Source: Erysipelotrichaceae bacterium (GTDB taxonomy: Bacteria > Bacillota_I > Bacilli_A > Erysipelotrichales > Erysipelotrichaceae). From it: a DNA stretch of 45,431 nucleotides. The stretch covers positions 1 through 45,431 of the forward strand of contig JAFRCV010000019.1 in NCBI GenBank assembly GCA_017404205.1. Reading direction: 5' to 3'. This document shows, piece after piece, positions 33,607 through 38,971 of this stretch. The notes under the pieces were generated by a model. It did no database searches, had not been told where the DNA came from, and worked only from the letters and a program-made list of their open reading frames with translations. The number at the start of each line of letters is the position of its first letter. The first letter of the stretch is position 1. The position numbers were made by a program, and so were the translations under genes.

Positions 33607-33643
33607 AAAATAAAAGCCGCACCACCTTTTGCTTCGTGCGACC
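33607..33643 (-). terminator. Attenuator terminator between the Tyr leader and the importer operon
   Basis: On the minus strand GTCGCAC (33642-33636) pairs with GTGCGGC (33622-33616), seven pairs with one G-T, followed by TTTTATTTT. It lies after the leader ORF and before the AAGGAG of the binding protein. An upstream segment on the minus strand, CTTTTGTGC within 33671-33662, can pair with GCAC...AAAAG in the terminator's 5' arm and loop, giving a competing antiterminator. Confidence 0.7.
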
Positions 33644-33673
33644 AACATTAATAAAAACAGTAGCACAAAAGCC

Positions 33674-33733
33674 TTACTTCATTATTCTAAAGTAATAATA
33701 ATAGTAATAACTTCTGTTTTCGTTTTTATTCAT
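33674..33733 (-). CDS. Tyrosine-rich leader peptide
   Basis: A 19-codon ORF on the minus strand, MNKNENRSYYYYYYFRIMK, stop TAA at 33676-33674. Six successive Tyr codons and one Phe are the hallmark of ribosome-mediated attenuation: scarcity of charged tRNA-Tyr stalls the ribosome and changes downstream folding. It lies 82 bases upstream of a TrpXYZ-type ABC operon with a terminator between. TTACTT and AAGTAA around the end of the ORF can pair as a 1:2 hairpin. The ATG is six bases after the -10, without a Shine-Dalgarno, so translation is probably leaderless. Confidence 0.75.
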   Translation of the reverse strand: MNKNENRSYYYYYYFRIMK

Positions 33734-33739
33734 ATTTAA

Positions 33740-33768
33740 AAGATACCATTACCATTGTTCTTTTGCAA
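33740..33768 (-). promoter_or_regulatory. Promoter of the Tyr leader and importer operon
   Basis: On the minus strand TTGCAA (33768-33763), 17-base spacer, TATCTT (33745-33740), with TGG before the -10. Transcription should start at or beside the leader ATG at 33733. Confidence 0.65.
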
Positions 33769-36031: not shown

Positions 36032-37123
36032 TTATTCTCTAATAAGAGGCATCGACATACAATGAGGTCCACCTCTTCCTTTTACAAGTTCCTTTGAAGG
36101 AAGTTCATAGACAACGGTGTTTAATTCTTTAAAGCGTTTGTTCATTTTTTTGTTAATATCATAAACAATGATTTTATTAGGACCTATGCATAATGTATTA
36201 CAAGCATCATTCCATTGTTCAATTTCATCATCACATATTAATAATTTAATATCGATGATGTTTAATAGTTTTTCCAATGTGATTTCAATACTTTCACTTA
36301 TATCAAAAATACCTTTTTCATTTATTAATTTTAGTTTTAAATTGTCATATATTTCTTTATAAATAACAAATTTATTTTCATCAAAACGTGTGAATACTGT
36401 ATCAAGATGCATACAAGCTCTTTTACTAGGGATTTCCATAATTAAAGATTGTTTAATGATACTATTGCTTATTAAACGTTCACTTAATTCTTTAGCAGCA
36501 TTTAGTGTTGTCCTTTCTGAAACACCTATAGCGATAATATCTTTATTCAACAAAATAACATCGCCACCTTCAATTTGATAATCAAAATTTGGTGCATAGT
36601 ATTTATGACCTTTAAAATCATCATGATATTTATTTATGTATTCACCATATATTGTTTCTCTTTTTCTTAAATTTGTATGCATATTATAGATGGCGATTCC
36701 ATTATCGATTATCGTGAAAGGATCTCTTGTAAAATACAAATTAGGTAAAGCCTGAAGCTTTCCATTTAATCCAGAGAAAGTATTTAACAATAACTCTTTA
36801 TTATCATTTATCTTTAAGAATTCATTATAGATTTTCTCATCATCACAATTAGCTTGTTTTAAGTAGTCTTTAATAAAAGATTCTTTAACATTATTTGAAT
36901 CTAAAACTTCTTTCATCAAATCTAATATATATACAACTTCTACATTATTGTCATTTAATATCTTTGAAAAATAATCGTGTTCCTTTTGAGCAATACTTAA
37001 ATTAGGCAACTCATCAAAAAGATATTCTTGTTTATTATTTTCATTTAAAACATTTAATTCAACATTTGGTCTATGCAATAATACTTTCTTTAAAGTATTA
37101 ATTTCGGAATTTACTTTCAACAT
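36032..37123 (-). CDS. arcA: Arginine deiminase
   Basis: Hydrolyses arginine to citrulline and ammonia. Family motifs are in place: FTRDPF with R133/D134, EGGDV (E185-D188), H239LD241 and the nucleophile C355 in GGPHCMSMPLIRE. At 363 residues it is about 40-50 shorter than usual (about 410), the shortening lying mainly in the helical region before FTRDP and in loops, not at the active site. No arcB, arcC or arcD is nearby, so ATP production from arginine would need genes elsewhere. The start is six bases after an extended -10 with no Shine-Dalgarno. Confidence 0.93.
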   Translation of the reverse strand: MLKVNSEINTLKKVLLHRPNVELNVLNENNKQEYLFDELPNLSIAQKEHDYFSKILNDNNVEVVYILDLMKEVLDSNNVKESFIKDYLKQANCDDEKIYNEFLKINDNKELLLNTFSGLNGKLQALPNLYFTRDPFTIIDNGIAIYNMHTNLRKRETIYGEYINKYHDDFKGHKYYAPNFDYQIEGGDVILLNKDIIAIGVSERTTLNAAKELSERLISNSIIKQSLIMEIPSKRACMHLDTVFTRFDENKFVIYKEIYDNLKLKLINEKGIFDISESIEITLEKLLNIIDIKLLICDDEIEQWNDACNTLCIGPNKIIVYDINKKMNKRFKELNTVVYELPSKELVKGRGGPHCMSMPLIRE

Positions 37124-37177: not shown

Positions 37178-37253
37178 TGGCGTCCTCGAAGCGATTCGAA
37201 CGCTTGACCTACCGCTTAGAAGGCGGTTGCTCTATCCACTGAGCTACGAAGAC
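37178..37253 (-). tRNA. tRNA-Arg (UCU)
   Basis: Cloverleaf on the minus strand: acceptor GTCTTCG/CGAGGAC, D arm TAGCTCAGTGGATAGAGCA, anticodon stem ACCGC/GCGGT with loop CTTCTAA (anticodon TCT), T arm AAGCG-TTCGAAT-CGCTT, discriminator G and encoded CCA. Reads AGA/AGG, the dominant arginine codons here. Confidence 0.95.
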
Positions 37254-37268
37254 ATTTCGTGCACTATT

Positions 37269-37297
37269 ACTTTATCATATTGAAAGATAAATATCAA
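37269..37297 (-). promoter_or_regulatory. Promoter of tRNA-Arg
   Basis: Minus strand TTGATA (37297-37292), 17-base spacer, TAAAGT (37274-37269), 15 bases before the tRNA. Confidence 0.5.
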
Positions 37298-37313
37298 TTT
37301 AATATTAACTTTA

Positions 37314-37322
37314 TGTTAAAAT
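37314..37322 (+). promoter_or_regulatory. Extended -10 promoter of argS
   Basis: TGTTAAAAT at 37314-37322, eight bases before ATG 37331. This decides the argS start, since translation cannot begin upstream of the transcript. Confidence 0.5.
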
Positions 37323-37330
37323 TTATGCGT

Positions 37331-38971
37331 ATGAATAAGATAGAAGAAAACTTAGTAAAGCTTATACGTGGGGCAATAAAAGAAGCTTATAGCTTAGATT
37401 TAGAAGAAGGGATGATCAATATCGAAATTCCTCGTGACAGTAATAATGGTGATTATTCAAGTAATATTGCCATGCGCCTTGCTAAAGAACTGAAAAATAA
37501 GCCCACTGATATAGCATTAAAACTAAAAGATTACTTAAATAGCAAAGAAATATTAAAGGTCGAAATTGCTGGACCTGGTTTTATTAATTTTTGGCTTAAG
37601 AAAGATGCAATGGCTGATGTTATCAATGTGATATTTGATAAACAAGGCGACTTTGGTCGAAGCAATGAAAAGAAAAAAGAAAAGATTTTATTAGAATATG
37701 TCAGTGCTAATCCTACAGGCATACTTCATTTGGGGCATGCAAGGGGTGCAGCGTGGGGCGATAGTGTAGCTCGTATTTTAAGATTTGCTGGCTATGAAAC
37801 ATTGAGAGAATATTACATTAATGATGCTGGCAATCAAATGAATATGTTGGCAGAATCAATCGATGCTCGTTATAAAGAAGCATTTGGTAAAGATTTTAAA
37901 TTACCAGATGATGGTTATCATGGTGAAGATGTTAAAAATATTGCTTTAAGAATAAAAGATGAATATGGCGATAAATGGTTAAATGTTCCTCATGAAGAAG
38001 CGTTAGCTTTCTTTAAAGAAGAAGGTTATCGTTTAGAGATGGAAAGAATTAGAAATGATTTATTGTATTATCGCTGTGAATTTGATTCTTGGATTTCTGA
38101 ACAAAAACTTGTTGATGAAGATCGTGTTAATAAAGCTATCAATACAATGGTTGAAAAAGGCTTAACATATGAAGCTGAAGGTGCTTTATGGTTTAAATCA
38201 ACATTATATGGCGATGACAAAGATCGTGTATTAAAGAAACAAAATGGATTTTATACTTATTTAGCACCAGATATAGCTAATCATGTTTATAAACTTGAAA
38301 GAGGCTATGATAAATTGGTTAATCTTTGGGGTGCAGATCATCATGGATATATTCCACGTATGAAAGCAGCTTTAATAGCTTTGGGCTATCCAAAAGATTG
38401 TATGGATGTTGACATCATTCAAATGGTTAGACTTGTAGAAAATGGTGTTGAAGTTAAGATGTCAAAAAGAACAGGCAACGCAATAACAATAAGAGAATTG
38501 TGTGATGATGTTGGTGTTGATGCCGCAAGATATTTCTTTTTAAGCAAGGCTTTAGATACTCAATTTGATTTTGATTTAGGTTTAGCTAGATCAAAGAGTA
38601 ATGAGAATCCTGTATATTATGCACAATATGCATATGCGCGCATATGCTCAATATTAAGACAAACAGAAGGTTTTAAGCGACTTGATAGTTATACATTATT
38701 AAATAACGAAAAAGAAACTAATATCTTAAAACATTTAAATGAATTTGGTGCAGTAATAGAAGATGCTGCAGTTACTAGAGCTCCAAATAAATTATGTAAT
38801 TATATTCAAAAACTAGCTCAATATTTCCATTCATATTATGGATCATATAAGATTATTGATGAGAATAATTTAGAATTAACTAATCAAAGGTTGTGTTTAC
38901 TTGAAGCAATTAGAATTGTTCTAAAGAATGCTTTCGATTTGCTTGGCATTGAAGCCTTAGAAAAGATGTAA
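37331..38971 (+). CDS. argS: Arginyl-tRNA synthetase
   Basis: Class I aminoacyl-tRNA synthetase charging tRNA-Arg. From ATG 37331 (MNKIEENLVKLI) it has 546 residues, the family length. A GTG at 37259 would add about 24 residues overlapping the tRNA promoter and is rejected. The N-terminal Add1 domain is followed by the HIGH-equivalent HLGH (GILHLGHARGAAWGD), the anticodon-binding DALR domain at the C-terminus, and KMSKR written VKMSKRTG. It sits divergent to the tRNA-Arg gene, which it charges. A cysteine-synthase-like gene follows two bases after the stop. Confidence 0.96.
   Translation: MNKIEENLVKLIRGAIKEAYSLDLEEGMINIEIPRDSNNGDYSSNIAMRLAKELKNKPTDIALKLKDYLNSKEILKVEIAGPGFINFWLKKDAMADVINVIFDKQGDFGRSNEKKKEKILLEYVSANPTGILHLGHARGAAWGDSVARILRFAGYETLREYYINDAGNQMNMLAESIDARYKEAFGKDFKLPDDGYHGEDVKNIALRIKDEYGDKWLNVPHEEALAFFKEEGYRLEMERIRNDLLYYRCEFDSWISEQKLVDEDRVNKAINTMVEKGLTYEAEGALWFKSTLYGDDKDRVLKKQNGFYTYLAPDIANHVYKLERGYDKLVNLWGADHHGYIPRMKAALIALGYPKDCMDVDIIQMVRLVENGVEVKMSKRTGNAITIRELCDDVGVDAARYFFLSKALDTQFDFDLGLARSKSNENPVYYAQYAYARICSILRQTEGFKRLDSYTLLNNEKETNILKHLNEFGAVIEDAAVTRAPNKLCNYIQKLAQYFHSYYGSYKIIDENNLELTNQRLCLLEAIRIVLKNAFDLLGIEALEKM

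Follow-up and report, generated by a model that had tools for sequence, protein, structure and literature searches.

Ribosome-mediated attenuation is known from the trpL and pheL leaders of Escherichia coli, in which a leader ORF with a run of regulatory codons is followed by a protector, an antiterminator and a terminator, and the position of the ribosome decides the outcome (PMC11802643). Among Firmicutes, His leaders occupy the place of T-boxes upstream of hisS/hisZ in Bacillus (PMC2965389) and have been predicted before his operons in Erysipelotrichales, Peptostreptococcaceae and the B. cereus group (PMC9413887), and the leucine-rich attenuator peptide of the Staphylococcus aureus ilv-leu operon has mutational support (PMC5794164). 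Leaders with aromatic codons include AroR of Corynebacterium glutamicum, whose Phe-Tyr-Phe codons respond to Phe and not to Tyr (PMC11802643), and the uORFC-13-1 motif upstream of aroF in Acholeplasma, a Phe-codon candidate (PMC8632094). On the importer side, trpXYZ of Streptococcus suis is preceded by a T-box (PMC9382623).

The locus analyzed here lies in a 45,431-nt stretch of Erysipelotrichaceae DNA (the window). Its layout is that of E. coli trpL and pheL, but the codons specify tyrosine, the target is an importer, the host is a probable aromatic auxotroph, and the leader ORF probably begins without a 5′ UTR. Like the His leaders it belongs to Firmicutes, indeed to an order in which they were predicted, and precedes genes which are T-box-controlled in relatives; unlike here, those leaders concern histidine and biosynthesis or synthetase genes (PMC2965389; PMC9413887). 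The S. aureus attenuator is likewise ribosome-mediated and in a Firmicute, but serves branched-chain biosynthesis (PMC5794164), while AroR (PMC11802643) and uORFC-13-1 (PMC8632094), although leaders with aromatic codons, both control DAHP synthase. The S. suis system shares the importer family and control by tRNA charging, but its sensor is a Trp T-box (UGG) with no leader peptide (PMC9382623). Finally, CD0873 of Clostridioides difficile (PDB 6hni) is of the same binding-protein family, with Glu-263 and a pocket Tyr conserved, but is a distant homologue for which the accessible part of the report describes no attenuator (PMC6816091). Leader-peptide attenuation as a kind is therefore known, as is the prediction of His leaders in Erysipelotrichales; what is new here is that the proposed sensor is specific for tyrosine, that its target is an importer, that it is exchanged with T-boxes and that its ORF is probably leaderless. 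No leader with a tyrosine run and no tyrosine-codon attenuator was found in the open-access literature searched, outside which most subscription papers lie. The features of the locus are collected in Table 1.

Table 1. Features of the leader region and the importer operon (positions in the window).
Feature	Position	Strand	Remarks
Predicted promoter	33768-33740	(-)	-35 TTGCAA 33768-33763, 17-nt spacer, -10 TATCTT 33745-33740
Leader ORF MNKNENRSYYYYYYFRIMK	33733-33674	(-)	ATG to TAA; relatives differ by silent TAT/TAC changes and by exchanges of Tyr and Phe
Protector 5′ arm ACAGAAGUU (region 1)	33717-33709	(-)	abuts the first Tyr codon on its upstream side
Tyr codons 9-14 of the leader ORF	33709-33692	(-)	
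Protector 3′ arm GGCUUUUGU (region 2)	33673-33665	(-)	directly after the stop codon; doubles as antiterminator 5′ arm
Antiterminator 5′ arm GCUUUUGUGCUACUG	33672-33658	(-)	identical in three congeners
Antiterminator 3′ arm GGUCGCACGAAGC	33643-33631	(-)	overlaps terminator 5′ arm; 12 pairs, -13.7 kcal/mol
Intrinsic terminator hairpin	33643-33615	(-)	
Terminator U-tract UUUAUUUUG	33614-33606	(-)	
Lipoprotein substrate-binding protein (ABC_sub_bind), tyrosine-type pocket	33592-32651	(-)	SD AAGGAG at 33603-33598
Permease (BPD_transp_2)	32648-31743	(-)	
ABC transporter ATPase	31756-30971	(-)	

A preliminary description of this DNA had claimed six consecutive Tyr codons and a Phe in a minus-strand ORF, followed by a terminator hairpin with a T-run and then an ABC_sub_bind importer operon, and all of these were recovered: the Phe is codon 15, directly after Tyr9-14, and the hairpin and T-run (33643-33606) precede genes for a binding protein, a permease and an ATPase. 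A short ORF with a run of regulatory codons thus lies directly upstream of an intrinsic terminator, and the terminator lies between leader and structural gene, as in leader-peptide attenuators generally. When the 1.62-Mb genome was screened by pattern and family searches, this was the sole short ORF with at least five consecutive Tyr codons. Five or more in-phase TAY codons occurred at four other sites, none of them a short ORF, namely a start-less bare repeat, an out-of-frame stretch in a lipoprotein-like gene, an isolated start-less stretch and the C-terminal Tyr cluster of a CpsD-like kinase. This tyrosine kinase (L144, about 1490-1530) ends in YYYYYYEY, the only other in-gene, in-frame Tyr run of such length in the genome. 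Dinucleotide shuffling of the upstream region yielded an ORF with a six-Tyr run in 0 of 1000 trials.

The fold of the leader RNA is far more stable than that of shuffled sequences (z = -4.2), and its central element, GCUUUUGUGCUACUG, is contested: either its first part pairs with ACAGAAGUU, which gives the protector, or the whole pairs with GGUCGCACGAAGC, which gives the antiterminator. The antiterminator in turn overlaps the 5′ arm of the terminator, such that the two are mutually exclusive. The antiterminator drawn previously was nearly right, the best pairing being that of GCUUUUGUGCUACUG with GGUCGCACGAAGC, and the 1:2 hairpin TTACTT/AAGTAA drawn with it is present, but only as the inner part of the longer protector ACAGAAGUU/GGCUUUUGU.

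From these alternative pairings we infer stalling and termination as follows. With plentiful Tyr-tRNA, the ribosome would reach the stop codon and cover GGCUUUUGU just after it; with GGCUUUUGU covered the antiterminator could not form, so that the terminator would form and transcription would stop. With scarce Tyr-tRNA, the ribosome would stall in the six-Tyr run and cover the 5′ arm of the protector, GCUUUUGUGCUACUG would then be free for the terminator 5′ arm, and the importer would be transcribed. In the absence of a ribosome, the protector would hold the GCUUUUGUGCUACUG segment and termination would result. The antiterminator would require GCUUUUGUGC, loss of which would be expected to leave expression low.

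This scheme was modeled by folding the RNA up to the terminator loop, the moment of decision, with a 30-nt ribosome footprint held single-stranded. On ribosome-free RNA the modeled probability of the antiterminator was 0.00; it rose to 0.84-0.85 when the ribosome occupied any one of Tyr9-14, and was 0.13 for a ribosome at Phe15 and 0.00 for one at the stop codon; in the folding model, therefore, a ribosome frees the antiterminator at the control codons and masks it at the stop. Tyr9-12 were permissive and the stop codon was off at all three footprint sizes, the downstream edge shifting by one to two codons, and under the standard model the last permissive codon of the window leader is exactly Tyr14, codon 14 being the last in the two congeners too. 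The full switch was reproduced by 0 of 400 shuffled window leaders and by 1 of 400 for each of two other leaders. For the leaders of L041, L185 and L186 the model lets the antiterminator form even when the ribosome sits at the stop codon. With the complete terminator included, at equilibrium, the terminator beats the antiterminator in most stalled states (0.22-0.98 for the window), which makes such folding uninformative and implies that antitermination would have to be decided during transcription, with the antiterminator forming first, as is standard in other attenuators.

The comparison of upstream regions of orthologous importers drew on 36 genomes from the genus, 196 from the family and a wider collection that contributed 80 loci. 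Nineteen importer loci, including some in other genera and in spirochaetes, have a Tyr/Phe-rich leader with its own terminator, most ending 65-125 nt before the gene and most with a matching antiterminator. The leader sequences diverge between lineages, yet the arm or loop of the terminator usually finds its complement close to the stop codon of the leader; examples are GUUGGC/GCCAAC (L036-L044 group) and GUUUGUGC/GCACAAAC (spirochaete locus L056). A test of the antiterminator partner against shuffles gave a combined p of 1e-5 over 11 representatives; in 7 of the 19 leaders (L036, L038, L042, L185, L100, L118 and L123) the pairing was not clearly better than in shuffles (p 0.1-0.44). Control codons are conserved in the homologues, with TAT/TAC and Tyr/Phe exchanges among them and an aromatic codon lost once in nine pairs compared. 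Alignment of the orthologous leaders, a check proposed in the preliminary description, showed that the in-frame aromatic run is kept while the flanks vary.

Aromatic-run leaders with their own terminators were seen at the spirochaete loci L056, L100 and L123 (e.g., MARNGYSYYYYYCVSVSSRVSNVL). Furthermore, four loci of one related genus (L039, L042, L043 and L044, in genomes G107, G155, G193 and G060) have two consecutive binding-protein genes, and a separate set of promoter, leader and terminator precedes each of them; the leader of the first is purely Tyr (e.g., MKIVSAYNVNYYYYYYSKK) and that of the second Phe-rich (e.g., MKTVLYNNAYFNFFFFYFNK), and codon content seems to be tuned to each module. 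Another 40 upstream regions, taken from importers at a greater distance (38-48% identity), yielded no convincing aromatic leaders except in the tandem-module genus, and many of them have a bare promoter. A covariance model derived from the three congeners and applied to the genus recovered nothing beyond these three loci except one match with E = 0.006 in genome G022; this was rejected as a further leader copy, since a hairpin with a T-run was all that could be seen around it, and no leader.

Taken together, comparison and modeling strongly support the interpretation of this locus as a ribosome-mediated transcription attenuator with charged tRNA-Tyr as its signal and a tyrosine ABC importer under its control, and we assign this reading a probability of about 0.88. 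The preliminary description had likewise read the locus as a tyrosine-sensing attenuator, and the homologous leaders and the covariance search both come out in its favor.

The substrate predicted for the importer has independent support. Among proteins of solved structure, the binding protein matches the tyrosine-binding C. difficile protein CD0873 best (1.5e-39). In CD0873, according to the accessible part of the report, Glu-263 hydrogen-bonds the tyrosine hydroxyl, the equivalent residue being Ala in VC_1101 and in the Trp-binding SP1069 (PMC6816091). The window protein has the Glu-263 equivalent as well as a pocket Tyr in place of the Gln of SP1069, and so carries both CD0873-type residues. 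Its score against the TrpX model (NF041285) is 215.7 bits, well below the tryptophan equivalog cut-off of 390, and this score together with the tyrosine-type pocket renders the earlier label "TrpXYZ-type" misleading. The earlier prediction of tyrosine as substrate fares better, being consistent with the CD0873-like Glu-263/Tyr pocket, with UAC T-boxes in congeners and with the failure to find two aromatic-pathway genes. Glu-263 is nearly universal among the collected orthologues, so that it favors tyrosine as the substrate of the group at large and cannot tell leader loci from T-box loci. Two orthologues, L009 and L012, have Asp at this site and both carry Phe (UUC) T-boxes, which suggests that the substrate may have changed together with the sensor.

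A broader specificity, in which stalling either at the run or at Phe15 would switch on an importer of several aromatic amino acids, is in our judgment unlikely. It would account for the mixture of Tyr and Phe in homologous leaders (L037-L039, L041, L043, L100 and L105), for the Phe inside the run of L002 and for the Phe (UUC) T-boxes on the same importer in some congeners, but all six control codons of the window are Tyr, and the permissive stretch of the standard model does not extend to Phe15. The nearest T-box relative reads UAC, the Tyr pocket residues are present, and the tandem modules, where pure Tyr and Phe-rich leaders go with separate binding proteins, likewise suggest tuned codons and hence favor a sensor specific for tyrosine.

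Neither a T-box (RF00230) nor any other Rfam family was detected at the locus, with nothing near the gathering score even at E up to 10. The preliminary description had contrasted the locus with the T-boxes of Firmicutes and proposed this covariance search; the lack of a T-box here was borne out, but the implied contrast goes too far, leader peptides not being foreign to Firmicutes (PMC2965389; PMC9413887). The presence of T-boxes at the same place in congeners, and a loose resemblance of the terminator region GGUGGUGCGG to the T-box motif, might point to a degenerate or atypical T-box which binds tRNA-Tyr directly, but we regard this as very improbable given the empty search, the mere ~128 nt from the ATG to the end of the U-tract, without a stem I, and the conservation of the Tyr reading frame in homologous leaders elsewhere.

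In the genus, a T-box motif stands in place of the leader at 25 of 30 loci, 12 of the 25 confirmed with Rfam and the others identified by motif alone. Specifiers of the T-boxes in the binding-protein tree, the ambiguous ones read from alignments, comprise 19 UAC (Tyr) and five UUC (Phe). In this tree L004, with a UAC T-box, is sister to the leader locus L003 (support 99/96) inside the leader clade of L001-L003 plus L031; L018, with a Phe T-box, is sister to L118, with a Phe-rich leader (support 100/100); and the starred branches cannot be explained with fewer than five changes of leader label. Most simply, one device would have replaced the other repeatedly, in one direction or the other, with the sensed amino acid kept; horizontal transfer of gene and leader may also have taken place. 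The window genome itself (G000) has 12 T-boxes (L128-L139), assigned by downstream ORF to alaS, metG, valS, leuS, thrS, ileS, pheS, lysS, serS, trpS, hisS and a methionine-type transporter. No tyrosine T-box was seen among these 12, and tyrS showed neither a T-box nor a Tyr leader.

The positions of the promoter hexamers are conserved in three congeners, and in the window, where the leader ATG has no SD, the -10 ends only 6 nt before that ATG, so that the A of AUG is the predicted first nucleotide of the transcript. In the three congeners and in L041 alike, no SD precedes the leader ATG, the -35 and -10 hexamers are 17 nt apart, and the -10 ends exactly 6 nt before the ATG; the hexamers of L003 are weak, and its best-scoring promoter pair lies elsewhere. 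Of the 19 leaders, 14 possess an SD together with a -10 whose end lies 20-37 nt upstream; L105 lacks both the SD and the 6-nt spacing, and a stricter consensus scan did not list the window promoter. From the hexamers we infer the 5′ end, and the leader ORF of the window is probably without a 5′ UTR. We tentatively extend this, at somewhat less than even odds, to a leaderless attenuator in which transcription would start at the A of AUG and the ribosome that loads at the mRNA 5′ end would serve as the tyrosine sensor, a design that would have arisen at least twice (in the window clade and at L041), along with repeated leader/T-box replacement on the same importer with the sensed amino acid kept.

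It is most improbable that the small peptide is itself functional, in the membrane or in trans, with the RNA switch secondary: trans-acting leader peptides are known, as the accessible part of a report on peTrpL describes (PMC7298713), but outside the aromatic run the present peptides share almost nothing across lineages, while their position relative to the terminator is kept. Equally remote is a chance TAY trinucleotide repeat before a terminator that merely ends an unrelated transcript, which the AT-rich genome and the nearly trinucleotide-repeat character of the run might recall, but which is rejected by the shuffles, by the uniqueness of the short ORF, and by the aromatic runs that homologues from other genera, spirochaetes included, have ahead of this gene, among them interrupted runs such as AYYYFFFSY that are no microsatellites.

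The window genome is 99.7% complete, and its closest named relatives are Erysipelotrichaceae MAGs from goat jejunum (76% binding-protein identity) and cattle duodenum (66%). Chorismate synthase and prephenate dehydrogenase were not found in this genome by searches which were positive in 14 of 14 control genomes; with neither gene found, the bacterium should depend on imported tyrosine and is probably auxotrophic for aromatic amino acids. Elsewhere in the window, a gene resembling arginine deiminase, with a score under the arcA cut-off, and a minus-strand tRNA gene stand back to back with a plus-strand argS (36032-37123, 37181-38971).

This clade constitutes a natural experiment in which two unrelated sensors of tRNA charging, proposed ribosome stalling and the T-box, precede orthologous importers in closely related genomes and for the same amino acid. 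The course of the exchange between the two devices, and the reasons for it, can thus be put to the test. The leader also provides evidence of substrate for a widespread importer family that is usually labeled as tryptophan or "sugar" transport. Moreover, our results suggest that gut Erysipelotrichaceae and rumen spirochaetes tune aromatic uptake by means of such leaders, and the tandem leader/binding-protein modules could let the uptake of Tyr and Phe be set separately.
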